The translations under genes were made by a program, and so were the position numbers. Under the pieces are notes generated by a model, which searched no databases, had not been told where the DNA came from, and worked only from the letters and a program-made list of their open reading frames with translations. From IMG/VR virus record IMGVR_UViG_3300018080_000215, positions 1 to 55,777 of that record: a stretch of DNA of 55,777 nt; one strand, written 5' to 3'. Each line of letters opens with the position of its first letter. Position 1 is the first letter of the stretch. The DNA comes from a virus. Positions 1 to 50,010 of this stretch are shown piece after piece.

Positions 1-2848
1 CAAACCCGTCATCAGTAGGTGGCGGCGCGTCTTCCGGCACATAGTCGGCTTCCGCAACAAACTGGTCATCGTTGACCCCGCCGTCCCCATACTGCTGGCG
101 TTTCGCCAGTGCTTCCTGTTCGGAGGCAAGCAACGACTGCTCGTCATAAAGGTTTCTTTGGTCAGTGGGCTGCCGCCTGCTTTGAACGTCGGCCTCCATA
201 GCCCTGCGGTACTGATCGCTAGGCTGGAATACTGTGCCGGATGCCCTCTTTGCTCGGTCAGTGGTTGGCTCAACAGCCTCAAGAATGTTCATCGACGCCT
301 GAACATGAGGCTCCAGCCGCGCCGCCATCCCGGGGTCTGGCAAGTCGAGCAAATCGAGAATGAATCCCGCCACTTCCCTGGCGGTAGGTCGGCGGGTAAC
401 AATCTGCTGGCCTTCGGGGAACTGCATGAATCCCCGCCAGATCGGCATGAGGGAGTCCAGATTGAGCGGAGCGGCCCTGACTTCGGTCAACGACGCCTCT
501 CGCAACAGACGGTCGCCTCCGCTGGCAGCGGCAGATTTTTTTACGTCACCGCTAGAATCGAATGCGTCTGACATAGCCGCTGCTGCGCTGTCCACAGCAT
601 CAACTGTCTGCCCCGGCCCCCCGAGTTCCCCTACGGAAATGCCGCCATTTCCAGAGGTTGCCAGCATATCCGGGTCAACGTATTCGTTGACCATGCGGAA
701 GATTTTCTCCCGCATCTTATCAACGTAAGACTTGCCTTCCCGCAAGGCTAGGTCATCGTCTCGTTTCTTGGATTTAGCGGTTCGGCCCCCTGAACCAGGA
801 AGCAACTCTTCTTTGACTTCTCTGGGGTCATAGAAGTAGTTGGGGTCTTGCGTTAAGTCTTCGACCGGGGCTGCTGGGCCTGGGTTTTTCTGTGTCCGCT
901 CCCGTTCCCTTGCAGCCTTGAATTCTGCGTCGATCTCGGCTGGGTCGCGAGCGAAGCCTGCTGCGGGGCTTTTGTCAGTCAGCCTCGCGGGTTCGTCTGG
1001 GCCGAATGACAGGTTCTCCCTCGCGCCGCCGCTCTTCTTGAATTCCTTCTCGGCGATCTCTGGCGGGGTTGGGAGGACAACTTCCGTTCTGGTTGCGCGC
1101 TCCCGGGGCGGGGCTGCCTTGCCCCGCTTTGTAGCCCTGCGTTGCGCCCGCAGGGAATCTACCGTAATACCGAGTCGGTTGGCTTCCTCAACGTCTTGCA
1201 AAAGAATCCAAGCCAGCCGATTGGGCGCGTCTGGTGGAATGTCTTTGTAGATGCCGGTGCGACGTTCGGACTGTTCGGCCAGCCGATACTTCTGCCGCGT
1301 ATCGCTATCTATGTAGTTCCTTAGACGCATCACCTCGGGGAGAGCGTTGCGTCCTTCGGGAACAAACACATCCCTCGGGGCGGGCATCTGCCGAGAAGAC
1401 AGATCGCGGTTGTCGATAAAGGAATCTATCTCTGGGTGGGCTTCCATCAATGAGCCGAGAGCGGAGGTCATCGCCTCGCCCCGGCGGGTGGTCGGGAAGT
1501 CCGGGTCATATCGCGCTAGTTCGACATAGGAATCAATGATTTCCTGTGCCTGGGCTAACGCTTTTGCCGCAGGCTCGGAGAGTTGCTCTATATCCGATGG
1601 GGCAATTCTCTCAACGACGTTGGCGTCTGCCTCAAACTCTGGCCTGTATCGAGTTATCCTTCTCGTCTCACCAAAGTTTGGATTTGGTTCTACCCCTCCT
1701 TCGGGAGGATCGAAAGTAAACTCATCTAAGCGATCTTCGAGAATCTCAAATCGCCTAACTGGGGCAGTGGGAGCGGCTGTCTCGGAGGGTGCAGTGCTTG
1801 CGGCAGGCTGCCTGTCAAAGGCTGCGAGTAGTTCGTCCTCTCGCCTGTTGACTAAGCCCTTTTTTTCAATGTATTCCCACCAGAGGTCTGTGTTGTCAGC
1901 CTGTTCTGCCAACTCGGCCAGCCGCCTACGGTCTTGTTGAGCCTCGTCAATGATGCTCTGGCGGGCCATGTTGCGAACGCTATCGTCATCAAGTTGCGCT
2001 CGCAGCGTATCGAGAATGGCCTGTTTCTCTTGGATGAGGGCAGGCTTCTCGGCGGCTGGGGCGGCTTCGATGCGGAAGTAATAGTCAGTGTCGGTCGCGC
2101 GAATCGCGCTTTCTATACGACCCCGCATCAACTCGATTTGTTCGCTTACGCGGGGATCGACGGACGAACCCCCGCCTTGTGAGCCGCGCTTAGGGCTGCC
2201 TTCCATCTCCACCACTGAGCGATAGCCGCGCCTGATTTGTTCCTGGCTCCAGCCTTCAGGATCGGTCACTACGGAGGTGTTGTCTGGCGAAGCACCCTCT
2301 AAGTACACCAACTCGGAATCGTCCGGCACTCTCTCTCGGGTCGCCGCAACGTCCACCGACTCAATTGTTTCTAGACCGCCGTCCTCTATTGCTCGCCTCG
2401 CGCGCGAGCGGGCGCGCGCTTCCGATGTAGTGTCGGGCGAGAGTGAGGTCGCATCGCCAAAAACGTCCGCGACGATCTGGGCGTCGGCAGCGTCAAGCGC
2501 ACCGAGCAGGCGACTCTGAACCTCTGGCGAAGCGTTGGAGAAAGCCAGACCATATAGGCGGCTTCCGGCGTCGGGGGCCGCTCGATGCTGCATTGCAGCG
2601 GCGAGCAGCGAATCGGCAATCTGCTGGAGGCTACTTGCTTCCTTCACCTTCATTCGCCGTTCGATGCCTGCCAGCACCGTAGGACGCTCGACGGCAAGAC
2701 GCGACATCTCTGCGTCTAAGGCAGGGGCTTCGGCAGCGACGAGATCGTCCAAAGTCGCAAAAGGGCTACCGGGTGGTTGGTCGCCCACACCACCGCGTAA
2801 GCGGCGCGACTTTTTGCCGGAAGATTTTCTGCGCCTGCCGCGAGCCAT
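1..2848 (-). CDS. Large hypothetical virion protein, partial at left window edge (closes across the ends)
   Basis: The frame opens with ATG at 2848, directly after the TAA of the upstream gene (adjacent stop/start), and stays open to base 1, giving 949 codons. No family is recognised. The protein is charged, rich in Glu/Ala/Arg/Pro and largely of disordered or helical character, with a very basic N-terminus (RGRRRK-type) and no membrane segment. It lies in the late virion module between small acidic and helical genes and, across the ends, another large helical gene. I infer an internal or ejected virion protein. If base 1 is joined to base 55777 the frame continues for three codons (Ala-Ala-Gly) and stops at TAG 55769-55767, giving 952 aa, with the TAG overlapping the next GTG start. 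Confidence is high for coding, low for role. Confidence 0.85.
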   Translation of the reverse strand, partial: MARGRRRKSSGKKSRRLRGGVGDQPPGSPFATLDDLVAAEAPALDAEMSRLAVERPTVLAGIERRMKVKEASSLQQIADSLLAAAMQHRAAPDAGSRLYGLAFSNASPEVQSRLLGALDAADAQIVADVFGDATSLSPDTTSEARARSRARRAIEDGGLETIESVDVAATRERVPDDSELVYLEGASPDNTSVVTDPEGWSQEQIRRGYRSVVEMEGSPKRGSQGGGSSVDPRVSEQIELMRGRIESAIRATDTDYYFRIEAAPAAEKPALIQEKQAILDTLRAQLDDDSVRNMARQSIIDEAQQDRRRLAELAEQADNTDLWWEYIEKKGLVNRREDELLAAFDRQPAASTAPSETAAPTAPVRRFEILEDRLDEFTFDPPEGGVEPNPNFGETRRITRYRPEFEADANVVERIAPSDIEQLSEPAAKALAQAQEIIDSYVELARYDPDFPTTRRGEAMTSALGSLMEAHPEIDSFIDNRDLSSRQMPAPRDVFVPEGRNALPEVMRLRNYIDSDTRQKYRLAEQSERRTGIYKDIPPDAPNRLAWILLQDVEEANRLGITVDSLRAQRRATKRGKAAPPRERATRTEVVLPTPPEIAEKEFKKSGGARENLSFGPDEPARLTDKSPAAGFARDPAEIDAEFKAARERERTQKNPGPAAPVEDLTQDPNYFYDPREVKEELLPGSGGRTAKSKKRDDDLALREGKSYVDKMREKIFRMVNEYVDPDMLATSGNGGISVGELGGPGQTVDAVDSAAAAMSDAFDSSGDVKKSAAASGGDRLLREASLTEVRAAPLNLDSLMPIWRGFMQFPEGQQIVTRRPTAREVAGFILDLLDLPDPGMAARLEPHVQASMNILEAVEPTTDRAKRASGTVFQPSDQYRRAMEADVQSRRQPTDQRNLYDEQSLLASEQEALAKRQQYGDGGVNDDQFVAEADYVPEDAPPPTDDGF

Positions 2849-3169
2849 TTACTCGGCCTTCTTCTTGCGCTTCTTAGGCTCTTTCTCTAGCGGAACCTTG
2901 GACATAGCCTTCCGCATCGACCCCTTTTTGAAGTCCTCTTCGGTGACAGGGATGGGGGCTGGCGATCCTTTGGTTTCGCTATGCAGAGAGGCCAGTTTCT
3001 CGGACTCCGATTCCTCCTCTTCTTCTTCGTCTTCATCGTCCATGTCCTCGGGCATCTTGCCAGGACGCTTGGCGTTGGACTTCATGTCGGCGAACACTGT
3101 TTCCCGCAAGATGCGGTCAACGCAAGAACGCTTGAGGTCACTGAGGTCGATAGGGAACGACATAGCCAT
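2849..3169 (-). CDS. Small acidic/basic hypothetical protein (106 aa)
   Basis: 106-aa protein with an AGGA ribosome site about 8 bases before the ATG. Residues about 40-56 are an almost unbroken Asp/Glu/Ser run (DMDDEDEEEEEE), while the C-terminus is Lys/Arg rich and ends KRKKKAE, so charge is strongly partitioned. Its TAA abuts the ATG of the following gene, which implies translational coupling inside the virion operon. No family recognised. It may be a small virion, scaffold-like or nucleoprotein component; this is inference from position and composition only. Confidence 0.75.
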   Translation of the reverse strand: MAMSFPIDLSDLKRSCVDRILRETVFADMKSNAKRPGKMPEDMDDEDEEEEEESESEKLASLHSETKGSPAPIPVTEEDFKKGSMRKAMSKVPLEKEPKKRKKKAE

Positions 3170-3178
3170 TGGTTTGTC

Positions 3179-3658
3179 CTAACTGAGGATTGATCCGAGA
3201 ACGCCAAAGAAATTGTTGCCGCGAGACATATCGCCCATTCGTCGGTCTGTCTGACGCTGGAGATTGCTGATGAACTCAAAAGCCTTGTCTTTCCGTAGAG
3301 CGTTCTGTGATGTCCGCTCTGTCTGGTCGGTGTCGAGCAACAGCCTCCGCAGCCCATCCTGCTCCTCCGCAATCGCGGATTGGTAATCGAAGAGAGCCTG
3401 CTGATCGTCCATCCGGCGAGCCATTGCTGCGCTGTTCGCACTCGGCGCAGACGCAAACTGCTGTGCAGCCATCATTCCAGAGCGATATGCTTCGCCCGCA
3501 CCACCCGCTCGAATTCCTGCTTGCTGTGGCCGATACGCCCGCTGGTTGCCGACGAAAGCCCTGTTAGCCTCGGCATCGGATTTCTGCTTCCGCAACGATT
3601 CGCCGCTGGCGACTATCGGGCCGGAATACGTTGTGGTGAATGAATCGCGCGCGAACAT
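3179..3658 (-). CDS. Hypothetical structural/ejection protein (159 aa)
   Basis: The start at 3658 is chosen because it overlaps the stop of the upstream gene as TAATG, the arrangement used repeatedly here. A longer upstream frame exists but reads as Arg-rich out-of-frame sequence. The protein begins MFARDSF, is Ala/Gln/Arg rich and predominantly helical in character, with a Gly/Ser-Ile-Leu C-terminus (FFGVLGSILS). No family is recognised. Next to the glycine-zipper protein and large helical proteins, it could be a small internal virion protein of the kind podoviruses eject ahead of DNA. Confidence 0.75.
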   Translation of the reverse strand: MFARDSFTTTYSGPIVASGESLRKQKSDAEANRAFVGNQRAYRPQQAGIRAGGAGEAYRSGMMAAQQFASAPSANSAAMARRMDDQQALFDYQSAIAEEQDGLRRLLLDTDQTERTSQNALRKDKAFEFISNLQRQTDRRMGDMSRGNNFFGVLGSILS

Positions 3659-4383
3659 TATGCGAATAGCCCTGAGAGAAGATTGGCAGTACCGGAGCCA
3701 GCACTGGCTCCGAGAGCGGCACCACCCGGGCCTCCGATCATGCCGCCCAGGAGCGCGCCGATGCCTGCGCCCGCGCCGCCGTATGTGCCTCCTCGACTCA
3801 TTCGGGCGGGATTGCCGAACCAACCGGCTCCGTAGCCGCCCGAACCGTCCGCGCCCCCTCGGTACGCAGTCCAGGCATTCCCCGCCGACGAGAGCAAGCC
3901 GCCACCCGCAAGCAAGTTTGCCATGTTGTGGGTGTACTCCAGGCTGGTGTTGCGGCGTTGTTCATCAAGCCTGTTTCGGATATTGCGAATATCCTCCCGC
4001 TTGGACAGATTGATGCCCCTCAAATCGTTCATGTACGACTCGTCCATGCCGTACCGGCGGGCGGCATCGGCCCGCTGCGAGTAGATGTCGGCACTTCGGG
4101 CCTTCTCTGCCTGCTTCTGGTAACCGCGATTAGCCTGTTCCATTTGCTGGAACCGGGCGTTTCCCCGTTGTTGTGAAAGTGCCTGGGAGTAAGCGTTTTG
4201 GGTTCTTGCGCCAGCACCGCCGCCAAATGCTGCGGGCTGGGATGACCCTCGTCCATACTGACGCTGCTCGGCGGCTCGATATGGGCCTTGCGTTTGAATC
4301 CTCGACGCACCACCAATGGGCGTAGTTCCTCTGCCCAAAGGCCGGATATTGCCCATCCCGGGGACGCTCACTGCTGGCCGCAT
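3658..4383 (-). CDS. Glycine-zipper candidate ejection protein (241 aa)
   Basis: 241-aa protein with AGGTGA just upstream of its ATG. The first ~60 residues are Gly/Arg/Gln rich, and 65-150 are helical and charged with several Tyr-Arg/Gln-Arg repeats. The C-terminal 40 residues form a glycine zipper (GAGIGALLGGMIGGPGG) of the type that inserts into membranes. That architecture, soluble helical body plus Gly/Ala zipper, is what I would expect of an internal virion protein that forms a channel across the host envelope, comparable in logic to T7 gp14. No sequence homology to gp14 can be claimed from reading alone. TAATG overlap couples it to the next gene. Confidence 0.78.
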   Translation of the reverse strand: MRPAVSVPGMGNIRPLGRGTTPIGGASRIQTQGPYRAAEQRQYGRGSSQPAAFGGGAGARTQNAYSQALSQQRGNARFQQMEQANRGYQKQAEKARSADIYSQRADAARRYGMDESYMNDLRGINLSKREDIRNIRNRLDEQRRNTSLEYTHNMANLLAGGGLLSSAGNAWTAYRGGADGSGGYGAGWFGNPARMSRGGTYGGAGAGIGALLGGMIGGPGGAALGASAGSGTANLLSGLFA

Positions 4384-30178: not shown

Positions 30179-31087
30179 ATGATTCGTAAGACGATTACCG
30201 ATGACGGTGTTCAGGTCTATTGGGACTCTGCGAAGGCTCCCAGGTCTGTCGTTCGTAAGTCATTCCGGGCCGCTGGCTTCGACAGCCTTGTCCCCCTCTT
30301 CGATCCTGTCGAGTGTCTCAAGCGAGTCGCTCATGACATTGTCGAGGTTGCTGGACTGAAGGTTCGCGGCCAGCCTATCGAGCCGAAGCAGTTGCGCCGC
30401 GATGTTGTCGGTGTTACTGCTGTTCGGGAGATCAAGGGAGCGAAGCGTAACGACTATCGCAACCTGTTCTCTATCGGCTGCACTGGCACCAACGCCGAGG
30501 ACTTCGAGGTTCGGTTCTTCGACGTTGACCCCGTCGAGGCTCCCGATATTGCCAAGAACTTGCAGGCTACCGAGCAGGCTGCCAAGTCTTTGTGGTCTGG
30601 GCACAAGGATTGGATGCCTGCCCAGGACATCACCTCTGCTATCCGAGGACTGTTGTTTCGACTGCATGGCACCATGCTGAAGAAGTCCGGTGGTGTTTAC
30701 TTCCTGCCGGAAGAACATCTCCAGACTTTCGAGAAGGTTGTCAGTCCTATCGAACAGTCTGAGTCCGAGTTGTGTGTGACCACTTGTTCGTTCGACATTC
30801 AGGCCAATCAGCGCATGTTCGACCGACTGCTGGCTGCCCTGGAAGCGGAAATCTTGGAGCAGACTTCCAAGATGAACGAGGACATTGCGAATATGTCCGA
30901 CAAGTCGAAGAAGATGCGGCGTAACGGCATCGAACGGCGGCTCTCTGACATCTGCCGCTGGACTGACAAGGTCGAGTATTACGAGAAGTTGATGGGTACA
31001 ACGATGCCCAAACTTCGCGAGGCGATTGACACTGCCCAGTATGCCATCGGTGTGCATGGTCTTGTCTCAATGGGGGCTAACTCTTGA
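30179..31087 (+). CDS. 302-aa hypothetical protein linked to MoxR/VWA pair
   Basis: ATG 30179 with TGAGG 8-12 bases upstream. The product is alpha/beta (TVQVYWDSAKAP-type start: MIRKTITDDGVQVYWDSAKA) with an N-terminal Arg/Lys-rich stretch, a central EIKGAKRNDYRNLF segment, GGVYFLPEEHLQTFEKVV, and a C-terminal helical region (LLAALEAEILEQTSKMNEDI). I do not recognise a named family with confidence. Its gene is followed directly by element E7 and the MoxR-type ATPase, and preceded by the acidic protein, so I infer it is a substrate, adaptor or regulator of that ATPase system. Confidence 0.8.
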   Translation: MIRKTITDDGVQVYWDSAKAPRSVVRKSFRAAGFDSLVPLFDPVECLKRVAHDIVEVAGLKVRGQPIEPKQLRRDVVGVTAVREIKGAKRNDYRNLFSIGCTGTNAEDFEVRFFDVDPVEAPDIAKNLQATEQAAKSLWSGHKDWMPAQDITSAIRGLLFRLHGTMLKKSGGVYFLPEEHLQTFEKVVSPIEQSESELCVTTCSFDIQANQRMFDRLLAALEAEILEQTSKMNEDIANMSDKSKKMRRNGIERRLSDICRWTDKVEYYEKLMGTTMPKLREAIDTAQYAIGVHGLVSMGANS

Positions 31088-31095
31088 GTCTCCCA

Positions 31096-31158
31096 ACCGT
31101 CCTTACGGACGGTCAGAAGCGATGGCTTTTTGCCAGCCGACCGGCGAACCGGTACGGC
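31096..31158 (+). promoter_or_regulatory. Two-hairpin AGCGATGG element, copy E7
   Basis: Hairpin 1 ACCGTCC-TTAC-GGACGGT (31096-31113), core AGCGATGGC (31118-31126) followed by TTTTT, hairpin 2 GCCG/CGGC around CCGG-CGAA-CCGG (31136-31158). Stem 1 shares no sequence with the CGAAGG versions yet is fully paired, the clearest covariation of the set. Leader frame Met-Ala-Phe-Cys... is open and in frame with the ATPase gene at 31191. Confidence 0.82.
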
Positions 31159-31190
31159 ATTTCATTCCTACAACAAAGCGAGGTTCACAA

Positions 31191-32333
31191 ATGGTTACGA
31201 CTGCTGCCCCCCGAAACATTCGGGGTGGCGAAGTTCTCATCCCCAACATGGCATATCACATTGCCATTCAAACCCGAGTCCCGGCCTTGGCCTGGGGTGG
31301 TACTGGTGTTGTCAAGACTCAAGGCAATGCCGCTCTGGCTAAGGCATTGGGGTTCAAGTTCTATCCTCTCATCGGTAGTTGCCATGCCCCCGAAGACTTC
31401 GGCGGTATCCCGTTCCCGGTGTTCAACGAGGGTCACACCGAACTGCTGCCAATGAAGTGGGTTCGCAAGACCCGCGATCCGTATTGGTTCATCTTCATGG
31501 ACGAGGTAACGACCATTCCGATTCAGGTTCGCCCACCGGCTCTTTCAATGTTGAGCGAACGCCGCATTGGTGAGTGTGTTATGCACCCCACCACTATCAT
31601 TTGTGGTGCCACCAATCCCCCGGAGTTGGCTCCCAACGCCGCTCCACTGGAGAAGTCTTTGCTCAATCGCTTCTATCACCACAAGTGGGAGTTCCCTCTT
31701 GCTGAATGGGTGAAGGGTATGCGACAGGGGCAGAACTTCGACGAGCCGAAAGTGACTATCCTCCCCGACAACTGGGAGACTTACATCGGCAAGTGGTCAA
31801 GCCTCGTTGGCAACTTCATTATGTCTCGTCCTGAAATGGCCGAGGAAGATCATTCCAAGTGCGACGATGACCGACTGTCATTCGCATCACCCCGGGCTTG
31901 GTCAAAGGCTGCCCTGTTACTGGCTGGTGCCGAGGCTTGCGATGCTCCGGTCGAAGTCTATGTGCAGTTGTTGTCTGGCATGATTGGTGAGGCGAACGGC
32001 AGTGAGTTCGTTGCTCATCTCCATGCTACTGAACTGTACAGTCCTGACGAGATTCTGAACGGCGACGTTACTGTCGATTGGCAGAAGAGTCGCTTCGATG
32101 TTCTGGCCTGTTTGCCCAGTGCTATCGTCGGGGCAATCAAGAGCGAGAACAGCGACAAGCGTTTCAGTAATGCCGTCAAGTTCTTCGTCGAACTGTGTGA
32201 GCATGAGGCCGACCTTGCACTCTATCCGCTACTGGAACTGATGCCACTGATGCCCGATGGACACCGTCTTGACCAAGATGCTGCGGTCAAGTTCTCCGGT
32301 GTCGTTCGTCAAATGGAACAGGGGGTGAACTGA
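31191..32333 (+). CDS. MoxR-type AAA+ ATPase (380 aa) with atypical Walker A
   Basis: ATG 31191 with GAGG 8 bases upstream. AAA+ features: Walker A-like GGTGVVKT at residues 36-43, where the usual Gly before Lys is Val; Walker B WFIFMDE at 99-105; sensor-1 region IICGATNPPE; and arginine-finger-type LLNRFYHHKWEF. MoxR ATPases are chaperones that work with VWA proteins on metal insertion or complex assembly, in the manner of CobS/CobT or RavA/ViaA. TGATG coupling to the zincin/VWA gene fits that partnership. The Val substitution may reduce turnover or mark a non-canonical P-loop. C-terminal half is a family-specific helical domain. Confidence 0.85.
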   Translation: MVTTAAPRNIRGGEVLIPNMAYHIAIQTRVPALAWGGTGVVKTQGNAALAKALGFKFYPLIGSCHAPEDFGGIPFPVFNEGHTELLPMKWVRKTRDPYWFIFMDEVTTIPIQVRPPALSMLSERRIGECVMHPTTIICGATNPPELAPNAAPLEKSLLNRFYHHKWEFPLAEWVKGMRQGQNFDEPKVTILPDNWETYIGKWSSLVGNFIMSRPEMAEEDHSKCDDDRLSFASPRAWSKAALLLAGAEACDAPVEVYVQLLSGMIGEANGSEFVAHLHATELYSPDEILNGDVTVDWQKSRFDVLACLPSAIVGAIKSENSDKRFSNAVKFFVELCEHEADLALYPLLELMPLMPDGHRLDQDAAVKFSGVVRQMEQGVN

Positions 32334-33856
32334 TGGAGAAGATGACAAGAGATCGTCTGATTATCGCCAAGGCTAAGGAGCGATGCCGCCAGTGGATGCC
32401 CTACTTGCGGCGTTTGTTCCTGCCGATGCGTTGTATTGCCAAAGACAACATCCCTACTGCGGCAGTCGATAAGTATTGCCGTATGTATTACAACCCGGGA
32501 TTCGTCAGCAAACTGACTGTCCCGCAGATGGCTTACGTCATTCTGCATGAGGTTCTTCATGTGGTGCTATCACACCACAAGAGAACGGCCAGGATGGCCC
32601 CCAATGCTGACAAGCAAACCCTGTTCCTTGCCAACATCGCTCAAGACCTGTGTATTCAGCAGGCTTTGCAGTCTGACGTTGGCTGCCATGAACCGGAAGA
32701 CATCGTTCGCATTGACCAGTGGACTCATATCGACGGCATCGAGCCGGGTATGACCAGTGAGCAATACTTCTACGCTCTCCGCGAATGGTACGAGAATCGG
32801 GAGGACGGGGAGCCAACAGAAGGCGAAGACGAGTCACCCTCGGAAGACTCCGAAGAAGGCTTAGGTTCTCCCCAAGACTCCGAGTCAGACGGCGATTCGG
32901 AAAATGATTCCGATGGCGATGAAGACTCCGATGGGGATGGTGAGTCATCGGCAGATGACGGTGATGAAGAGTCTGACGAAGACGGCAGCGATGGCGGGCA
33001 GTCTTCGGAAGACGATGATTCCGATAGCGATGCGGAATCGGAGGCGACCGGCAGCGGTCAAGGTGAGTCAGATTCCCAATCGGAAGTAGACACTTCGGGT
33101 ATGCCAGCGATGGGGGATATTTGTAATCCTGCCCATGCTGGTTCCAACTCTGACGGTGAAGAAAAGCCTTGGGAAGACCCGCCGACTCTCGCTGATGTTG
33201 CCAACCAAGAGCGGGCTTTGAGGGAAGTCGAGAAAGACATCGACGAATGTCAGAGTCTCGGGGCTGGTGGCGGCGGGATTCGTCAGTCACTCAAGGCTCG
33301 GCTGCATCCTCTGCCAGACCCGTTCGACGAACTCCGTACTGCTGTTGGTCGGACGCTGGTGGCGGCTGCTGGCGATCCCCGGAAGACCTACCGCAAGTAT
33401 CCCCGTCGCACTCTTCCCGGTGATGGAAGGCTCATGGGCACTGAGCATATCCAGCCGGAAGCGGTGATCTTGCTAGACACCAGTGGTTCTATGGAGTCTA
33501 GCGCAATCAAGGATCGAGCCTTGACGATTGTCGCCAAGGGTATCTCGCGATTGCAGAATCCCCGTATCGTTTGTTGCGACGGGGTGGTGCAGTCTGAGAA
33601 CCGGGTGGCGAATATGTCCCGGTTTACCTGGGACGGCGGTGGCGGCACTGATATGACAGCCGGTCTTCTCTACGTCCAAGAGAAGTACAACCCCGACGCT
33701 ATCGTCATCATCACTGACGGTATCACCCACTGGCCGACCGAAAAGTTACGGGCCAAGGTTATCTGTGCTTTGTGTTGTGGTGCTTGGGCAGAACGAGTGC
33801 CGAAGTGGCTCAAGACTGTGCATCTATATCGGGAGCAACACAAATATGCTCTCTGA
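32333..33856 (+). CDS. DUF2201-type protein: zincin-like domain, acidic linker, VWA domain (507 aa)
   Basis: N-terminal domain carries HEVLH at 72-76 followed by SHHKR, an HExxH-type zinc site of the DUF2201 N-terminal putative metallopeptidase. Residues ~153-265 are an Asp/Glu/Ser linker (DGDSENDSDGDEDSDGDGE). The C-terminal VWA-like domain has the MIDAS DTSGSME at 382-388, GGGTDM at about 438 and IIITDG-type strand near 460. This is a paired partner for the upstream MoxR ATPase. Known VWA/MoxR pairs remodel or load metal into target complexes; here the target is unknown. The gene stops eight bases after the start of a small membrane peptide gene. Confidence 0.88.
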   Translation: MEKMTRDRLIIAKAKERCRQWMPYLRRLFLPMRCIAKDNIPTAAVDKYCRMYYNPGFVSKLTVPQMAYVILHEVLHVVLSHHKRTARMAPNADKQTLFLANIAQDLCIQQALQSDVGCHEPEDIVRIDQWTHIDGIEPGMTSEQYFYALREWYENREDGEPTEGEDESPSEDSEEGLGSPQDSESDGDSENDSDGDEDSDGDGESSADDGDEESDEDGSDGGQSSEDDDSDSDAESEATGSGQGESDSQSEVDTSGMPAMGDICNPAHAGSNSDGEEKPWEDPPTLADVANQERALREVEKDIDECQSLGAGGGGIRQSLKARLHPLPDPFDELRTAVGRTLVAAAGDPRKTYRKYPRRTLPGDGRLMGTEHIQPEAVILLDTSGSMESSAIKDRALTIVAKGISRLQNPRIVCCDGVVQSENRVANMSRFTWDGGGGTDMTAGLLYVQEKYNPDAIVIITDGITHWPTEKLRAKVICALCCGAWAERVPKWLKTVHLYREQHKYAL

Positions 33857-38582: not shown

Positions 38583-38869
38583 GTGTGCCTTCAATTCTTA
38601 ACCAAGCAGAGATGATGGTGATTGCCTTGAGTGCATACCAAATGTTGTACCGGGGCAGCGAGGACAGGATCGTTGTTGGGCTAACACCGCAGCATTGCAG
38701 CGCAATACGGGCAATGCTTCAGGACGATAACTTCAAGGCAGTCGCACTCGATGCTTGGAATGAAGTATTCGTTGAGAGAGAAGGTGAGTTGTATGACGCT
38801 GTTCGGGCTGCGATGCAGGAGTGCGGTGTTTGGGACTCGTTTCGCGAAGTCTGTGGAGACAAGCGGTGA
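38579..38869 (+). CDS. Small hypothetical protein (96 aa)
   Basis: 96 aa, MSVPSILNQAEMMVIALSAY..., helical with a Cys-containing C-terminus (CGVWDSFREVCGDKR). GTGA overlap with the serine recombinase gene. No family recognised. May regulate or accompany the recombinase. Confidence 0.7.
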   Translation: MSVPSILNQAEMMVIALSAYQMLYRGSEDRIVVGLTPQHCSAIRAMLQDDNFKAVALDAWNEVFVEREGELYDAVRAAMQECGVWDSFREVCGDKR

Positions 38870-39660
38870 AGAAGCAGCGACCTGGGCTGGTCTATGGTTA
38901 CGGGCGGCACTCCACCCACAAGCAAGACTTGACCCAAGATGTTCAGAAACAGCGGTGTTACGAATACTTCCAACGGAGCCTGTTGGGAGACGGGTGTATT
39001 TGGCAAGGGTTCTATTACGATACCGCTGTATCTGCTGGGAGAACTTCGTTTGCTGAAAGACCGCAAGGAAAGATGGTCTTCCATTCCCTCCAGCCTGGGG
39101 ATCACCTAGTCTTATCCAGGCTCGACCGATGCTTCCGTTCTGTTCTGGACGGGGTCAATGTGATGGAGATGCTTGAGAAGAGGGGAGTGTATTTTCATTC
39201 GCTCGACCTGAGTATCGACACTAGAACCCCGCTCGGTAGGTACGTCCGCAACATCTTGCTGGCTGGCGCAGAGTTGGAACGCGATTTAGCCAGGGAGAGA
39301 GCCAACGAAACAATTGCATACTTGCAATCACAAGACCTCCCTTACACTAGGGTTGCTCCGATTGGCTGGAAGATCGTTCGGAGAAACAAGCGTCGGGAGT
39401 ATCGGGTAGACCAAGAGGAAAGGGATTTCGTAGAACTGCTGCGGGAGGGCAGGGATGCCGGTGCTTCGGTCTACGATCTTGCCAACTACTGCTGGAATAC
39501 CCAGGAACGGTTTGGGACGAGCCGGAACTTTGGGAACCTGTCTGCCATCAAGTGGGCTTTGCAAGCCCATGCACTTGGCTTCCCCAAGGTTGTTGGTCGA
39601 AGAAGGATAAACAAACTGTGGCGGGAACAGCATGATGCTGGCCTGCTTCCCCAGTTCTAA
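38866..39660 (+). CDS. Serine recombinase/resolvase (264 aa)
   Basis: GTG 38866 overlaps the previous TGA. The catalytic serine is S16 in YGYGRHSTHKQDLTQDV; further hallmarks are LSRLDRCFRSVLDGVNVME (Arg-containing D helix), the SIDTRTPLGRYVRNILLAGA motif and ELERDLARERANETI, followed by a C-terminal helical DNA-binding part. Length is intermediate between small resolvases (~190 aa) and large integrases (~450 aa). It may invert a segment, resolve multimers or mediate alternative integration. Its stop overlaps the convergent sigma-like gene by four bases. No crossover site was identified. Confidence 0.9.
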   Translation: MKKQRPGLVYGYGRHSTHKQDLTQDVQKQRCYEYFQRSLLGDGCIWQGFYYDTAVSAGRTSFAERPQGKMVFHSLQPGDHLVLSRLDRCFRSVLDGVNVMEMLEKRGVYFHSLDLSIDTRTPLGRYVRNILLAGAELERDLARERANETIAYLQSQDLPYTRVAPIGWKIVRRNKRREYRVDQEERDFVELLREGRDAGASVYDLANYCWNTQERFGTSRNFGNLSAIKWALQAHALGFPKVVGRRRINKLWREQHDAGLLPQF

Positions 39661-40184
39661 GGCAGATCGCTCTCTGCCTGACGCAGCGACTTGATCGCTG
39701 CTTGTACCCTCCGCTGAATAGTGCGGGGGTCACACTGCTGCTCGTATCCCAGTTGCTCTAGGGTGACTTGCTCTATGAGCCGATCTTCGAGAAGCACTCT
39801 GTCTTCCGCAGACAGCAGCCTCAATGCCCGCAGTGCCCGCATTTCCTGGCGGGTTCTGTGGGTGTTGGGGGTGGGGTCTAGGATTCTTTCTGTCGGGATA
39901 TATCTGCCGTCCTGCCTCTGTTGCTTCAGGACTTCCCGATATAGGGCATGGCGAATAGCCGAAGAGAAGTATGTGCTGACTTGGCTCTTCTCTGGACTGT
40001 AGGTAAATGCCGCGAGACAGATCGCATGATTGGCAACACTGTACAGATCGACCCTCTTGATCCAGGGGCGCAGGTCTGGATTGCGCTTGATGAATGTCCG
40101 CACCGCTGGCTGCACTACTTCGGCAGCCTCTTCTACATAGCGGCGTTGCTTGTTATTCAGTCGGCGGGGCTTGCTCTGGCGCAT
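39657..40184 (-). CDS. Sigma-factor-like protein (175 aa)
   Basis: Residues ~44-95 (VDLYSVANHAICLAAFTYSP then STYFSSAIRHALYREVLKQ) match sigma70 region 2, the core-binding and -10-melting helix. Residues ~120-170 (LSAEDRVLLEDRLIEQVTLE then QQCDPRTIQRRVQAAIKSLR) match region 4 HTH. No region 3 is seen, so it is a group-4/phage-type sigma. It is the last gene of the minus recombination operon and could direct host RNA polymerase to late promoters, a common phage strategy. Converges with the recombinase gene with a four-base stop overlap. Confidence 0.85.
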   Translation of the reverse strand: MRQSKPRRLNNKQRRYVEEAAEVVQPAVRTFIKRNPDLRPWIKRVDLYSVANHAICLAAFTYSPEKSQVSTYFSSAIRHALYREVLKQQRQDGRYIPTERILDPTPNTHRTRQEMRALRALRLLSAEDRVLLEDRLIEQVTLEQLGYEQQCDPRTIQRRVQAAIKSLRQAESDLP

Positions 40185-45412: not shown

Positions 45413-46993
45413 TCAGTTGTTTCTGTTTCTGATCTCCCGCTGGATGGCGGCTCGCAAGGGTTCTTTGATCCCGCGCGCCTTGAGTAGCCAGTGCAGCAAA
45501 CCCGTATCCACCTCTCTGATTAAGCGGCCTCGCTCCTTGCCGAACGGAACTCTCCAGCCTCGCTGGCTTGGGCGGCTCTCGGCCCGCAGGAAGGCCGGTC
45601 GCTCGTAGTTGCCGAACTCGACCCCTGCCAGCCAAGCGGCCCTCTGACGCTCTGTGAGAGCCTCCTGGGCAGCCCTCTGTCTGGCCTCCTGTGCGGCCTC
45701 CTCTGCCATGAGTTCCCGCTCGACGGCAAGCAGGCGATCCAAGTCTGTTGGCGACATTGGGGTGTCCGGCTTGCGCTTGCCCTTGGCTCTCTTGAGAAGG
45801 TCGATTTCTTCCTTGCCTCTGAGTGCGTCCACTGAGGTGATGAGGTCGTTGTGTCTAGATGCGTCCACCAGATCGAAGATTTCAAAGAACGGCTTCTGGG
45901 ATGCTGCGATAGCGGCTCGACGCTCCTCGGGGGTCGCCAGCCCGACCAGCATGGAGGCGGGCCAGGGTCGAGTTCCGCGTCCAACCATCTGCTGATAGAG
46001 CGACCTACTCTTCGTCGGCTTGCAGCAAAATAGTTTTTTGACCATCGGGCAATTCCAACCGGTGGTCAGGCAGCCGACATTGAGGATGACATTCAGTTCG
46101 CCAGCCTCAAACATTCCTAGATGCCTGAATCTCTCGTCGCGATCCATCCTGCTGTGGACGATTGCCGCCTCTAGCCCGCCGCGAGCGAGAACAGTCCGCA
46201 CCCTCTCTGCCTGGAATACCCCTTGGCAATAGACAACGCTCGGCTCTCCCTCATGGTGTTGAAGGACAAGGTTGGCTACGGTCTGGACGAGACTGTCGCG
46301 AGACATCTCCTTGGCTAGACGCTCGGCAGAGTAATCGCCGAAGCCAGAGTCGAACCGGCTAAGGTCTAGGTCGCTGGCAACAGACAGCCAGATGCGGGGC
46401 GGTACGAGCCAGCCATCCTCGATGGCCTGCTGCAACTCATAGAAGTACGCGCAGTCGCCGTAGAACTCTGTAAGCGGATCGCCTTTGAGCCGGTCTGGCG
46501 ATGCAGTCAAGCCGATGATTTTGGAGCCGCACTCTCGGAAGACCGAGAGTATGTCCATCGCTCTCTTGCTGTAGTTGAGATGTGACTCATCTACCAGCAC
46601 AACAGAGACGTTGTGCGTATACGCTTGGTATCGCTCTCGCGATATGAGGGACTTATAACTGGCGACAGTGATCCGCTGATCGCTGATCTGCCTGCCCTGC
46701 TCGATGCCACAGGGTAGCCCCCTCGACCGTAGTCGCTCGGCAGTCTGAGCAACCAGAGGGTCAAGGGGGCTAACCACCAGCCCCCGCGACTCGCCAGTAG
46801 CGAGGGCTTGCAGTAACATCACTATTATCTCGGTCTTGCCAGTGCCACATGGCAATACCAACAAGCCCCCCGACTTTGTCTCCAGGTGCTTGAGGCACTT
46901 GTCAACTGCGGCGATCTGGTAATCCCGCCAACGCACTGACCCCTGGGGTGCAGGAATCGCATGGGTTGGGAATAGTGATAGATTCTGCGGCAT
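45413..46993 (-). CDS. DEAD/DEAH superfamily 2 helicase (526 aa)
   Basis: SF2 motifs in order: Walker A LPCGTGKTE (residues 48-55), DESH Walker B (in VVLVDESHLNYS), LTASPDR (motif III), then C-terminal LNVGCLTTGWNCP (motif V) and QMVGRGTRPW (motif VI). The C-terminal ~130 residues are charged and coiled-coil-like (MAEEAAQEARQRAAQEALTE), a DNA-binding or oligomerisation tail. Resembles phage helicases of the UvsW/RadD type that unwind recombination or replication intermediates. In an operon with ERF, RecE and resolvases, it probably serves recombination-dependent replication. Confidence 0.93.
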   Translation of the reverse strand: MPQNLSLFPTHAIPAPQGSVRWRDYQIAAVDKCLKHLETKSGGLLVLPCGTGKTEIIVMLLQALATGESRGLVVSPLDPLVAQTAERLRSRGLPCGIEQGRQISDQRITVASYKSLISRERYQAYTHNVSVVLVDESHLNYSKRAMDILSVFRECGSKIIGLTASPDRLKGDPLTEFYGDCAYFYELQQAIEDGWLVPPRIWLSVASDLDLSRFDSGFGDYSAERLAKEMSRDSLVQTVANLVLQHHEGEPSVVYCQGVFQAERVRTVLARGGLEAAIVHSRMDRDERFRHLGMFEAGELNVILNVGCLTTGWNCPMVKKLFCCKPTKSRSLYQQMVGRGTRPWPASMLVGLATPEERRAAIAASQKPFFEIFDLVDASRHNDLITSVDALRGKEEIDLLKRAKGKRKPDTPMSPTDLDRLLAVERELMAEEAAQEARQRAAQEALTERQRAAWLAGVEFGNYERPAFLRAESRPSQRGWRVPFGKERGRLIREVDTGLLHWLLKARGIKEPLRAAIQREIRNRNN

Positions 46994-47313: not shown

Positions 47314-47557
47314 CTGACAATCCCCCTTTCATTAAGAACTCATCTACCCTGTCTGCGAACATCGCCCGCAGAGTGTCCAATTCCGAGAACAGCGAGAGAA
47401 CGTCACCCCGAAGGGAGACAAAGGCGAGTTGAACCCGCCAATACTGTTCTTCGTCGTAACGCACCAATTCCTCGTTACTGTCAACGAGATTCCGCGCTGC
47501 CTCGGCGGCAGTCAGTAACCTCTCCTTGATCTCCAGAAGTTGTGATCCGCTAATCAT
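47081..47557 (-). CDS. Hypothetical protein with charged C-terminal tail (158 aa)
   Basis: ATG 47557 overlaps the ERF stop (ATGA). Residues 1-80 are helical and acidic (LLTAAEAARNLVDSNEELVR, LSLFSELDTLRAMFADRVDE); 85-158 are disordered with alternating acidic, Ser and Lys/Arg blocks (PAKRTRRKRAKRAK). The disordered part overlaps the 94-aa gene, so its codons are constrained by two frames. May be an ERF-associated or ssDNA-handling accessory protein by position. Confidence 0.75.
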   Translation of the reverse strand: MISGSQLLEIKERLLTAAEAARNLVDSNEELVRYDEEQYWRVQLAFVSLRGDVLSLFSELDTLRAMFADRVDEFLMKGGLSDAISSDDRSESNTGDDVPAVEDGGSGSGSEEKRDDPTAASEPVPAKRTRRKRAKRAKSSGDSPDSEVATESMDGGAG

Positions 47558-48195
47558 TTCTGCTCCTTCCTGCTAAGGGCTTGCTTGCGGAAACCTGCCC
47601 GCTTGCGTATCTCGTTCATCTCTGCTGCACTGATCTCCTCACTGGCGAGACGCTCTTCAGCCCGCGACAGCAGCGCATCTATGTCTTCGACGGTTGATGC
47701 TGCTGCGAGTTTTTTCGCGGCTAGGTCGAGGAGTCGCGTCTTGGAATCCTGGGCGGCAGCGTCGGCGGCAGACTCGCCGTCATCGTCATCCTCTGACGAA
47801 AGGCCCAGCATCGAGGCGTAGGCCATGCGCCTCATATATGTGCAGTAGGCAGAGGTGTGCTGTGGGTTCTGCGAAACCTTGATAGGCACCTGACTGCTGA
47901 CGTATTGGCCCGTTTTGTGTAGCAGCGTTGTGTTGAGGATCAGATCGTCGCCCGCCGGGTGGAACGTCTGGAGGACTGCTAGACCGTTCTCGGCGAGTGG
48001 CCCCCGAGCCGCCCGCCGCAAGGCACTGAGGTCGGCGTATTCGCCGTACTGGCCTTTCCGGTTTTTCTTCGGTTCGTCCATTAGCCCCATCGCAAGAACG
48101 AGGCTCTCCGACAACTCCTTCAGGTCTTTGCTGCGTTCGACATAGACAAACACCCCATCCGACACATGGCTCTCAAGAGTCCTAATCGCTGGCAT
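47554..48195 (-). CDS. ERF-family single-strand annealing protein (213 aa)
   Basis: Start ATG 48195 with AGGGGGG 5 bases upstream (an upstream TTG is less likely). Conserved ERF core: KNRKGQYGEYADLSALRRAA, PLAENGLAVLQTFHP, NTTLLHKTGQYVSS, AYCTYMRRMAYASMLGLSSE and an acidic C-terminal region. ERF proteins anneal complementary single strands in phage recombination and circularisation. Partner to the upstream RecE-like exonuclease, giving a two-component recombination system. Confidence 0.93.
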   Translation of the reverse strand: MPAIRTLESHVSDGVFVYVERSKDLKELSESLVLAMGLMDEPKKNRKGQYGEYADLSALRRAARGPLAENGLAVLQTFHPAGDDLILNTTLLHKTGQYVSSQVPIKVSQNPQHTSAYCTYMRRMAYASMLGLSSEDDDDGESAADAAAQDSKTRLLDLAAKKLAAASTVEDIDALLSRAEERLASEEISAAEMNEIRKRAGFRKQALSRKEQK

Positions 48196-48209
48196 CTCAG
48201 CCCCCCTTT

Positions 48210-49100
48210 TCAATAACGGCTCGGATACATTTCCAACTCAGTCATCTGCCCGTAGTCTTCGGGCAGCCAGTGATCCCATTCAGTCCGGTCGCGCATCTCG
48301 TCGAGATACCGCAAGACCCTGTCCCTGGCTCGGCGCACAACGGCTGCCGGAAGAGTCACCACATGGCAGTGGTGGGGAAACAGGGTGCTGATGACAACGA
48401 AGACCAACCGGTGATCCGGCCAGCCTGCGGCTACAGCAGCGTCCTCATAGACTGCGGACTGAAGGTCGTAGCCCCACTGCTGAACGCTTGAGCGAAATTG
48501 CTTTAGCGGGTAGAGATCGCGAGTGGTCTTGAGGTCGTACCAGAACTCCTCTGTCGCCCCATCGCAGCGGCAACGCATTTGGTGACCGTTCAGCGTCCAA
48601 CGGATGTTGAACTCGGCGTCGATGCGCTTCTCGAATATCTCTGCTGCGGCAGCGTTGCGAAGGATGCCCTGCCATTGGGCCTCAACCTGCTCTAACTCGG
48701 CGGGCGTTACGCCAACCCTGTCGGGCGGCAAGCCATCGAGCCACTCCTGCCCCTTCTTGCTCAACGCTCCAGTGGCGGTGATCGCAGACTCGGGGGCCAT
48801 CTCCAGCGAGTCATGCCACTGCTCGTCGCCTAACTCATGGCGAAGATGGAGAAGTGTCCCAGCGCGGAGGGCCGGGGAATTTTTCGGCGGGGCAGTTCCC
48901 GCGATATGCCGCAGGTAGTAGCCCAGCGGCGAATTCGCAAATTCTTTGAGTTGGGAACAGGAGATGCCAGCCGAGCGGTGGTACTCCTCGGCTGGCTGCC
49001 TATCTATGGTGACTAGCGGCGACCGGACTTGAACCGGTGACACCCGGCTTATGAATTCGGTGCCACCAGCACCACCCTCAAAAACTGAGGGAGCATCCAT
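48210..49100 (-). CDS. RecE-like PD-(D/E)XK exonuclease (296 aa)
   Basis: Motifs: HRSAGISCSQLKEFANSPLG, ALRAGTLLHLRHEL, FWYDLKTTRDLY (catalytic D-x-K) and QQWGYDLQSAVY (QxxxY motif). This is the RecE/exonuclease VIII arrangement that makes 3' tails for ERF. The start is uncertain: ATG 49100 avoids overlapping the divergent integrase start; ATG 49181 would overlap it by 50 bp; a GTG at about 49039 lies inside the tRNA-like segment. If the upstream starts are used, the attP core is translated as part of this protein, so integration would change its N-terminus. Confidence 0.88.
   Translation of the reverse strand: MDAPSVFEGGAGGTEFISRVSPVQVRSPLVTIDRQPAEEYHRSAGISCSQLKEFANSPLGYYLRHIAGTAPPKNSPALRAGTLLHLRHELGDEQWHDSLEMAPESAITATGALSKKGQEWLDGLPPDRVGVTPAELEQVEAQWQGILRNAAAAEIFEKRIDAEFNIRWTLNGHQMRCRCDGATEEFWYDLKTTRDLYPLKQFRSSVQQWGYDLQSAVYEDAAVAAGWPDHRLVFVVISTLFPHHCHVVTLPAAVVRRARDRVLRYLDEMRDRTEWDHWLPEDYGQMTELEMYPSRY
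49014..49055 (-). other. Probable attP: 3' half of a CAT-anticodon tRNA
   Basis: Read on the minus strand, the 42 bases carry a 7-base anticodon loop TTCATAA, the 3' arm GCCGG, a 5-base variable loop, a perfect T-arm ACCGG-TTCAAGT-CCGGT and the acceptor 3' strand CGCCGCT plus discriminator A. The 5' half of a tRNA, including the complement AGCGGCG, is absent, so it is not a functional tRNA gene. Identity to the last ~42 bases of a host tRNA is the normal design of a phage attachment site. It lies 77 bp from the start of a tyrosine integrase. Confidence 0.85.
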
Positions 49101-49131
49101 CCCCTGGAGAGGGCACCCCCGGGAGGGCGAT

Positions 49132-50010
49132 ATGTCCCTTACACTTTCGTCAGTATCAAAAGGCTTGCCTTCATCGCCCATGACTCTAGCGTCCCTGGTT
49201 GCTGAGTATGTCGAGCAGAGGGGGGCTGGTGACCGCTACAAAGAATCCCTGCGGCGCACCGTTCGGAAACTGACAGGGTATGGAATGATCCGCGTCTGTC
49301 AACTCCGGTCGAGTGCGGTCAATGATTTTCTTTCCAGCCTCGCCCTGTCGGCCACTACCCGAGCGAACATTCGCCGCGAAATCCTGACCCTCTGGCGATA
49401 CGCATTTGAACAAGCGTACACTGACGAGGCACCGATTCGCGTCAGGCGTATCCGAGTTTGCCGAGAGCCACCGCAGTGCTGGAGCCTAGACACAATTCGC
49501 AGGATGCTGTGTCTGGCAGAACGCGATGAGTCGCCAGTTGTCAGACGAGTCCCAGGTCTACAGTGGCGAGATGTGATGCCCTGCTGGATCGCAATTGGCT
49601 ATGACACTGCACTCCGGTTTTCTGATCTGCTGCATCTCCACCAGCGAAACTACAACAATGGGGCAATCCGCGTAGTCGCCAGGAAGACGGGCAAGCCGAC
49701 CGTTCGCAAACTAAGCCAATACGCTATCTCGGTTACGGACAGCCTGTTGTCGAAAAGCACAACAGGGGAGTTGTTCTTGTGGTGCGTCACCCGCAGAAGA
49801 ATGCTGCTGAAGTGGAAGAATTTCCTAACCCAACATGGGATACCGGGATCGAGCCGGTGGTTGCGTCGGTCAGCAGCCACTTATGTCGAGCGAATCTCAC
49901 CGGGCGCAGCCCCCCGATTCCTGTCGCACAGCAATCCTGACTTAGCCAAGTTTCACTATATTGATGAAACTCTTCTGGCTCCGGTAGCGCAGCCGCCAGC
50001 ATTACGCTAA
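49132..50010 (+). CDS. int: Tyrosine recombinase (phage integrase, 292 aa)
   Basis: ATG 49132 follows GGGAGGG at 6 bases. N-terminal SAM-like core-binding region (TLASLVAEYVEQRGAGDRYK) and C-terminal catalytic domain: Arg162 in DTALRFSDLLHLH, Lys185/188 in ARKTGKPT, the HxxR motif replaced by RWLRR (R242-W-L-R245), His266 in FLSHSNPDLAKFHYID and nucleophile Tyr276. Length is normal for short phage integrases. Lies next to the tRNA-like attP and converges on the 95-aa gene with a one-base gap. It would insert the phage into a host tRNA gene. Confidence 0.92.
   Translation: MSLTLSSVSKGLPSSPMTLASLVAEYVEQRGAGDRYKESLRRTVRKLTGYGMIRVCQLRSSAVNDFLSSLALSATTRANIRREILTLWRYAFEQAYTDEAPIRVRRIRVCREPPQCWSLDTIRRMLCLAERDESPVVRRVPGLQWRDVMPCWIAIGYDTALRFSDLLHLHQRNYNNGAIRVVARKTGKPTVRKLSQYAISVTDSLLSKSTTGELFLWCVTRRRMLLKWKNFLTQHGIPGSSRWLRRSAATYVERISPGAAPRFLSHSNPDLAKFHYIDETLLAPVAQPPALR

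Follow-up and report, generated by a model that had tools for sequence, protein, structure and literature searches.

The window analysed here is the whole 55,777-bp stretch of viral DNA in IMG/VR record IMGVR_UViG_3300018080_000215, and it contains a tyrosine integrase gene transcribed divergently from an exonuclease gene, the latter being the first member of an exonuclease-ERF-helicase cluster. A segment resembling half of a tRNA lies between the integrase and the nuclease domain. The features of the locus are as follows.

45413-46993, minus strand: superfamily 2 helicase of the same cluster (synteny with relatives)
47554-48213, minus strand: ERF single-strand annealing protein, the next gene after the exonuclease (synteny with relatives)
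48210-49100, minus strand: DUF3799 / PD-(D/E)XK exonuclease reading through the predicted attP; it begins at ATG 49100 or at ATG 49181, in a frame that stays open up to 49235
48210-49013, minus strand: nuclease-domain part, which would move behind the host tRNA-Met on integration (real example in prophage L251)
49014-49055, minus strand: predicted attP core, comprising the host tRNA-Met(CAT) 3' half and 14 codons of the exonuclease frame (FISRVSPVQVRSPL)
49014, minus strand: A73, preceded by the acceptor CGCCGCT; CCA is not encoded
49038-49022, minus strand: T arm, ACCGG-TTCAAGT-CCGGT
Minus strand, 3' of the anticodon loop: 3' anticodon stem GCCGG, then variable GTGTC
49055-49049, minus strand: anticodon loop TTCATAA, predicted 7-bp overlap region
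49056-49063, minus strand: 5' continuation of the core on the 5' anticodon stem side, 6 of 8 positions identical to the host
49064-49100, minus strand: exonuclease 5' codons upstream of attP, which would stay at the integrase end on integration
49132-50010, plus strand: tyrosine integrase; start at 49132 or 49180, conserved region from 49180

Alignment of 11 integrases shows that R146, K169, R230 and Y260 are invariant and H250 nearly so; we take these to be the catalytic residues of a tyrosine integrase, and their retention agrees with the earlier note, which had placed an attP beside such a gene. At 49179-49182 the integrase ATG and an ATG of the exonuclease frame overlap as CATG on opposite strands, an arrangement also present in L003, L004, L010, L012, L013 and L015, and in several such relatives the Shine-Dalgarno-like sequence of each gene would fall within the other gene. 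A scan of the divergent region for sigma-70 promoters returned none. A small hairpin followed by a T run (49088-49105, minus strand), between the presumed exonuclease start and attP, is terminator-like and might attenuate a leader.

Elsewhere in the window, an ATPase (phrog_1297) followed by a DUF2201 putative metallopeptidase/VWA protein (31026-33856, plus strand) resembles a MoxR-VWA chaperone pair, and a serine resolvase domain protein (PF00239) adjoining a weak sigma-70 region 2 protein (38821-40184) is present besides the tyrosine integrase. Searches against named phages gave 0 matches with the 40-55.8 kb region (megablast) and 0 with the integrase (tblastn). The portal protein has 86 further relatives in IMG/VR versus one weak named-phage match (28% identity, Microcystis phage), and that of the 25.9-kb contig L016 (IMGVR_UViG_3300017991_001369) is 100% identical to it.

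The half-tRNA segment and its relatives

Read on the minus strand, the 42-bp segment from 49055 to 49014 (TTCATAAGCCGGGTGTCACCGGTTCAAGTCCGGTCGCCGCTA) is the 3' half of a CAT-anticodon tRNA, extending from the anticodon loop to A73. The earlier note had located this segment and reported that its 5' half is missing, and both points stand: the 42-mer is present once only in the window and is absent from shuffled windows even at 3 mismatches, ARAGORN finds no complete tRNA gene in the window, and a scan of the window for the 5' or D-arm half (TAGCTCAGTTGGTTAGAGC) is empty at up to 3 mismatches. The 42-bp limits proposed there are too narrow, as identity to the host tRNA picks up again 5' of 49055 with GCACCG (49063-49058), past mismatches at 49057 and 49056, so that alignment with attB, attL and attR gives a tRNA-homologous core of ~50 bp reaching 49063. 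Because bases 49056-49057 would disrupt the anticodon stem, strand exchange probably occurs 3' of them, and the 7-nt anticodon loop, which is flanked by imperfect inverted repeats and is the same in every aligned attP, attL, attR and attB, is the natural candidate for the overlap region.

The same half-tRNA is found in 14 other viral contigs, recovered by a degenerate DNA pattern without reference to any protein, and all 14 carry a homologue of the window integrase (about 31-48% identity) on one side and an exonuclease homologue on the other; in many of them ERF and helicase genes are next, where the contig reaches. These contigs and the full-length tRNA-Met genes of Planctomycetota that contain this half (see below) show that the resemblance is not due to chance. 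More members with a half-tRNA came from exonuclease searches and from searches with the 11-sequence integrase alignment, which did find members of the group; a single-sequence integrase search of viral contigs had confirmed nothing. In L114, L115 and L142 the half-tRNA derives from tRNA-Gly(CCC) instead of tRNA-Met. Integrases among L132-L190 without an exonuclease were left out, since they have a different neighbourhood and a tRNA half was recognised in L187 only.

Could the segment be the remnant of a phage-encoded tRNA gene, or a tRNA-like RNA of the phage, and not an attachment site? Rfam searches over 49014-49076 do give weak matches to tRNA (19.6 bits, under the cut-off, and the sole Rfam tRNA match) and to mascRNA, with a fold z-score of -2.6. 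We nevertheless regard this as very improbable, because the half in relatives always begins at the anticodon arm and always lies between integrase and exonuclease, the sequence 5' of it is unrelated from phage to phage, and both a host tRNA and prophage junctions match it.

Several relatives vary the arrangement. The attP of L127 (about 2700-2992) contains a tRNA-Gly 5' half (GCGGGCGTAACTCAGTTGGTAGAGTGCTAGCTTCCCAAGCTA), likewise open in the exonuclease frame, so that on insertion the phage would supply the 5' side of the restored tRNA. Six integrase-exonuclease pairs (L164, L167, L169, L180, L185 and L189) have no tRNA half and still have a long exonuclease 5' extension; in several of these, the sequence CCTACA-7 nt-TGTACG upstream of int may be a non-tRNA core site within the gene. 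An exception is L293 (2700-3060), with an integrase of this family, no recognisable half-tRNA, and an exonuclease with its own nearby ATG.

Host tRNA and prophage junctions

The exact 42-mer has 0 matches in 84,980 species genomes and in other viral contigs, so a degenerate pattern was used in which the T-stem end pair and two variable-loop bases were left free. It identifies 15 genome loci, all in planctomycetes (Planctomycetales, Planctomycetaceae, Pirellulales and Planctomycetota) and including two MAGs labelled Candidatus Kuenenia, also a planctomycete; the whole tRNA gene (GGCGGCGTAGCTCAGTTGGTTAGAGCACCGGC joined to TTCATAAGCCGGGTGTCGCCGGTTCAAGTCCGGCCGCCGCTA) or a near copy is present at 13 of the 15. 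In this genome search, Planctomycetota alone have complete tRNA-Met genes that end in this 3' half. The host tRNA is identical to the window core at 40 or 41 of 42 positions, and the two-base difference is compensatory: where most hosts have G and C at the two positions of a single T-stem pair, the window carries A and T (A49-U65 in the tRNA), which leaves the pairing intact. Genomes L257-L259 and L263 have A-U at that pair and a single mismatch to the window. The bacterial CAT-anticodon tRNA anticipated by the earlier note thus exists, with two compensatory differences in most hosts and one in the nearest. As to its identity, for which tRNA-Met or tRNA-Ile2 had been proposed, ARAGORN says Met, a label covering elongator Met or Ile2, and its anticodon stem differs from that of an initiator tRNA.

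Joined in silico, the host 5' half and the window 3' half form a perfect 74-nt tRNA-Met, as expected if the tRNA is restored after insertion. A matching full tRNA-Met is present in 46 of the 72 genomes in the GTDB family that contains both prophage-bearing genomes described below. These comparisons support Planctomycetota, order Pirellulales, as the probable host group. The suggested route from the segment to the name of the host therefore leads to Pirellulales and stops short of a species, the exact 42-mer being unmatched.

Prophage boundaries do lie at such tRNA genes, and the two junctions come from two genomes and two relatives of the window phage, not from one prophage. At the attL of L251 (G195:C271), an intact tRNA-Met (c7007-7082) is followed by the exonuclease nuclease domain (51-55% identity) and ERF with no integrase between, and the other side is chromosomal, with MutS, RpoN and a molybdopterin oxidoreductase. 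At the attR of L250 (G021:C205), a whole integrase (50% identity) is followed by the displaced 3' half and then by host flank that is 94% identical over 193 nt to the region directly downstream of the intact L104 tRNA-Met. L250 has two family integrases in tandem (1648-3666) beside its one displaced tRNA half.

The same tRNA-Met is also occupied by an 8.9-kb island (L272, G039:C1 97.3-106.3 kb) with an unrelated 582-aa integrase, a DnaB-like helicase and a methylase-Mrr fusion, whose own 3' half has the A-U T-stem pair and whose displaced host copy has G-C. Truncated copies of the segment in genomes at L098, L106 and L270 have no integrase of this family nearby, probably belong to other elements, and were set aside.

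A probable attachment site within the exonuclease reading frame

Taken alone, a half-tRNA attP is ordinary, and the tRNA 3'-end sites of temperate phages are usually intergenic. The site in the window resembles these in having a half-tRNA core beside a tyrosine integrase with predicted restoration of the tRNA, and differs in that the half-tRNA is read in frame as protein; the earlier note, although correct in reading the site as an attP, missed this placement inside the exonuclease frame.

The frame is open across the half-tRNA in the window and in 19 relatives, three of them with tRNA-Gly(CCC). Two of the three half-tRNA frames are stop-free and both occur, FISRVSPVQVRSPL being the reading of the window and LHKPGVAGSSPAAA that of most relatives; the third is blocked by a TAA in the anticodon loop. 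This openness could in principle be coincidental, with an ordinary attP at the edge of the gene, the nuclease starting downstream of it (perhaps at a rare start codon), and only the promoter changed by integration; a half-tRNA is stop-free in two of three frames anyway, homologues usually start about where the attP ends, and in three of 19 phages a TTG follows att ahead of the nuclease domain. However, in all 20 distinct phages the frame reaches a start upstream of attP or the integrase start, compared with 12.3 expected from shuffling (tail 5e-5, ignoring shared ancestry), and in 13 of the 20 it is open to the integrase start (5.3 expected, tail 2e-4, again ignoring shared ancestry); of the two control frames, one reaches an upstream start in 8/19 phages and the other in 1/19. 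Shine-Dalgarno sequences accompany the starts upstream of att in L005 (AGGGAGG), L007 (AAGGAG) and L002 (GAAGGA), with good ones also in L113 (with L007) and L117 (with L002). Moreover, ATG, GTG and TTG are all absent between attP and the conserved YH motif in 16 of 19 phages, and the window has none until codon 95 of its computed attL frame save a GTG within the core. We therefore consider an edge-of-gene site unlikely.

Exonuclease homologues without an integrase or att have an ordinary ATG just ahead of the domain, as in L277 (MDPFSISHEPAHEYHGWPETSASQL), and in its close relative L273 the same motif stands behind the tRNA-encoded peptide. An N-terminal 'SP' motif recurring in the exonuclease extensions was dropped as evidence, because it is complementary to the integrase Shine-Dalgarno sequence. 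The location of attP within the nuclease reading frame is thus well supported by comparison of these sequences, and we found no description of an attP inside an exonuclease gene in the open-licence literature.

Integration and the nuclease gene

In the L251 prophage the exonuclease frame opens after a TAG formed by tRNA nucleotides 8-10 and has no start codon before 6564, the first in-frame start leaving 140 of 309 codons; the frame is otherwise undamaged, as expected of an element still able to excise. In computed fusions of six phages with the host 5' half, the first starts are about 37-156 codons past the start of the core. The computed attL of the window has an in-frame TAG four codons ahead of the anticodon loop, and the GTG within the core is the sole early start, lacks a clear ribosome-binding site, and is followed by no other before codon 95. 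This GTG survives integration in the window, unlike in most relatives, and is a possible but poorly placed start. With the frame closed by the TAG of the tRNA and the start left upstream, integration is predicted to behead the nuclease gene, and excision would restore it. As such, the nuclease is probably silenced in the lysogen, and the split may be used as a regulatory switch.

We consider it probable, with good confidence in the reading as a whole, that a temperate phage infecting Planctomycetota of the Pirellulales type uses the segment as its attP core, and that this core lies inside the phage's own nuclease gene, which integration splits, with lysogeny likely switching the nuclease off. 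The core, the host tRNA and both junction types (in relatives) are identified by sequence, and we infer the exact positions of exchange; the prophage gene arrangement is seen in one real prophage and computed for the window. The integrase would join attP to the tRNA-Met gene of the host, the likeliest crossover being an exchange of 7 bp that spans the anticodon loop. The phage 3' half would take the place of the host's, giving a complete tRNA-Met at one end, and the displaced host 3' half would come to lie next to the integrase at the other. In the free phage genome the frame would run from a start upstream of attP, across the tRNA half, and into the nuclease, whereas after integration the integrase end would keep the start codon with any sequence ahead of it, leaving the nuclease domain behind the tRNA-Met, with its in-frame TAG and no proper start. 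Lysogeny would likely shut off the nuclease mechanically, and perhaps also the genes behind it, with excision turning it on again.

The split might alternatively be a tolerated by-product of a site that entered a gene in a crowded region, the loss of the nuclease having no regulatory role since the early region would be repressed anyway. The tight, divergent packing of integrase and exonuclease in the relatives fits this, and a repressor could sit among the unannotated genes; yet the arrangement is kept over integrases only about 30-48% identical and over two tRNA targets, and no repressor domain was recognised among the early-region proteins scanned, which were part of the set. We view a by-product as plausible, if on the doubtful side.

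A split of the nuclease gene on integration has parallels, of which the first two given here are the nearest. In integration-dependent immunity of mycobacteriophages (e.g. BPs; Clusters G, N and P) and M. abscessus prophages, the repressor gene contains, in its 3' portion, an attP with a tRNA 3'-end core, and once the phage integrates the repressor loses a degradation tag and becomes active (PMC9262239, PMC8092301). Shared with these are a tyrosine integrase, a tRNA 3'-end core inside a phage gene, restoration of the tRNA, alteration of the gene, a stop codon at attL, and core mismatches that preserve tRNA pairing. Here, in contrast, attP sits toward the 5' end of a gene for a recombination nuclease, whose start integration would take away; the gene encodes a PD-(D/E)XK nuclease divergent from int and not a repressor cotranscribed with it, and given the 5' position integration could not remove an ssrA-like C-terminal tag from the product. 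Archaeal suicidal (SSV-type) integrases have the target within their own gene, which integration splits (PMC8371274); the window likewise has its target inside an element gene divided into N- and C-terminal parts, but it is the nuclease that is split, the integrase remaining whole (conserved from 49180, with the core ending at 49063). In ICEKp1, a tRNA-integrated ICE, integration supplies the integrase gene with the promoter of the tRNA (PMC13023037). The window phage shares with it an insertion next to a tRNA gene that would alter what stands upstream of an element gene, and hence expression, although here the gene behind the tRNA would lose its translation start. The general way of working is the same as in all three systems, and the defining features of the first two (gene identity, 3' position, split integrase) are absent.

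These results link a group of uncultured phages to Pirellulales as its host group, and describe a type of gene splitting, controlled by integration, that falls on a recombination nuclease and not on a repressor or an integrase. The half-tRNA variant (the CGCCGCTA or CGCTGCTA acceptor, and the T-stem pair) may serve as a host tag. Since the split follows from sequence, the state of lysogeny could be read from metagenomes, with attP reads carrying an intact nuclease gene and attL reads a beheaded one. We give about an even chance to the broader proposal that in this planctomycete phage lineage integration is a hard genetic switch on the lytic recombination genes, such that the prophage is unable to make the nuclease and excision reassembles its gene, whichever tRNA is targeted; the rest of the cluster may then be read only from the host tRNA-Met promoter.
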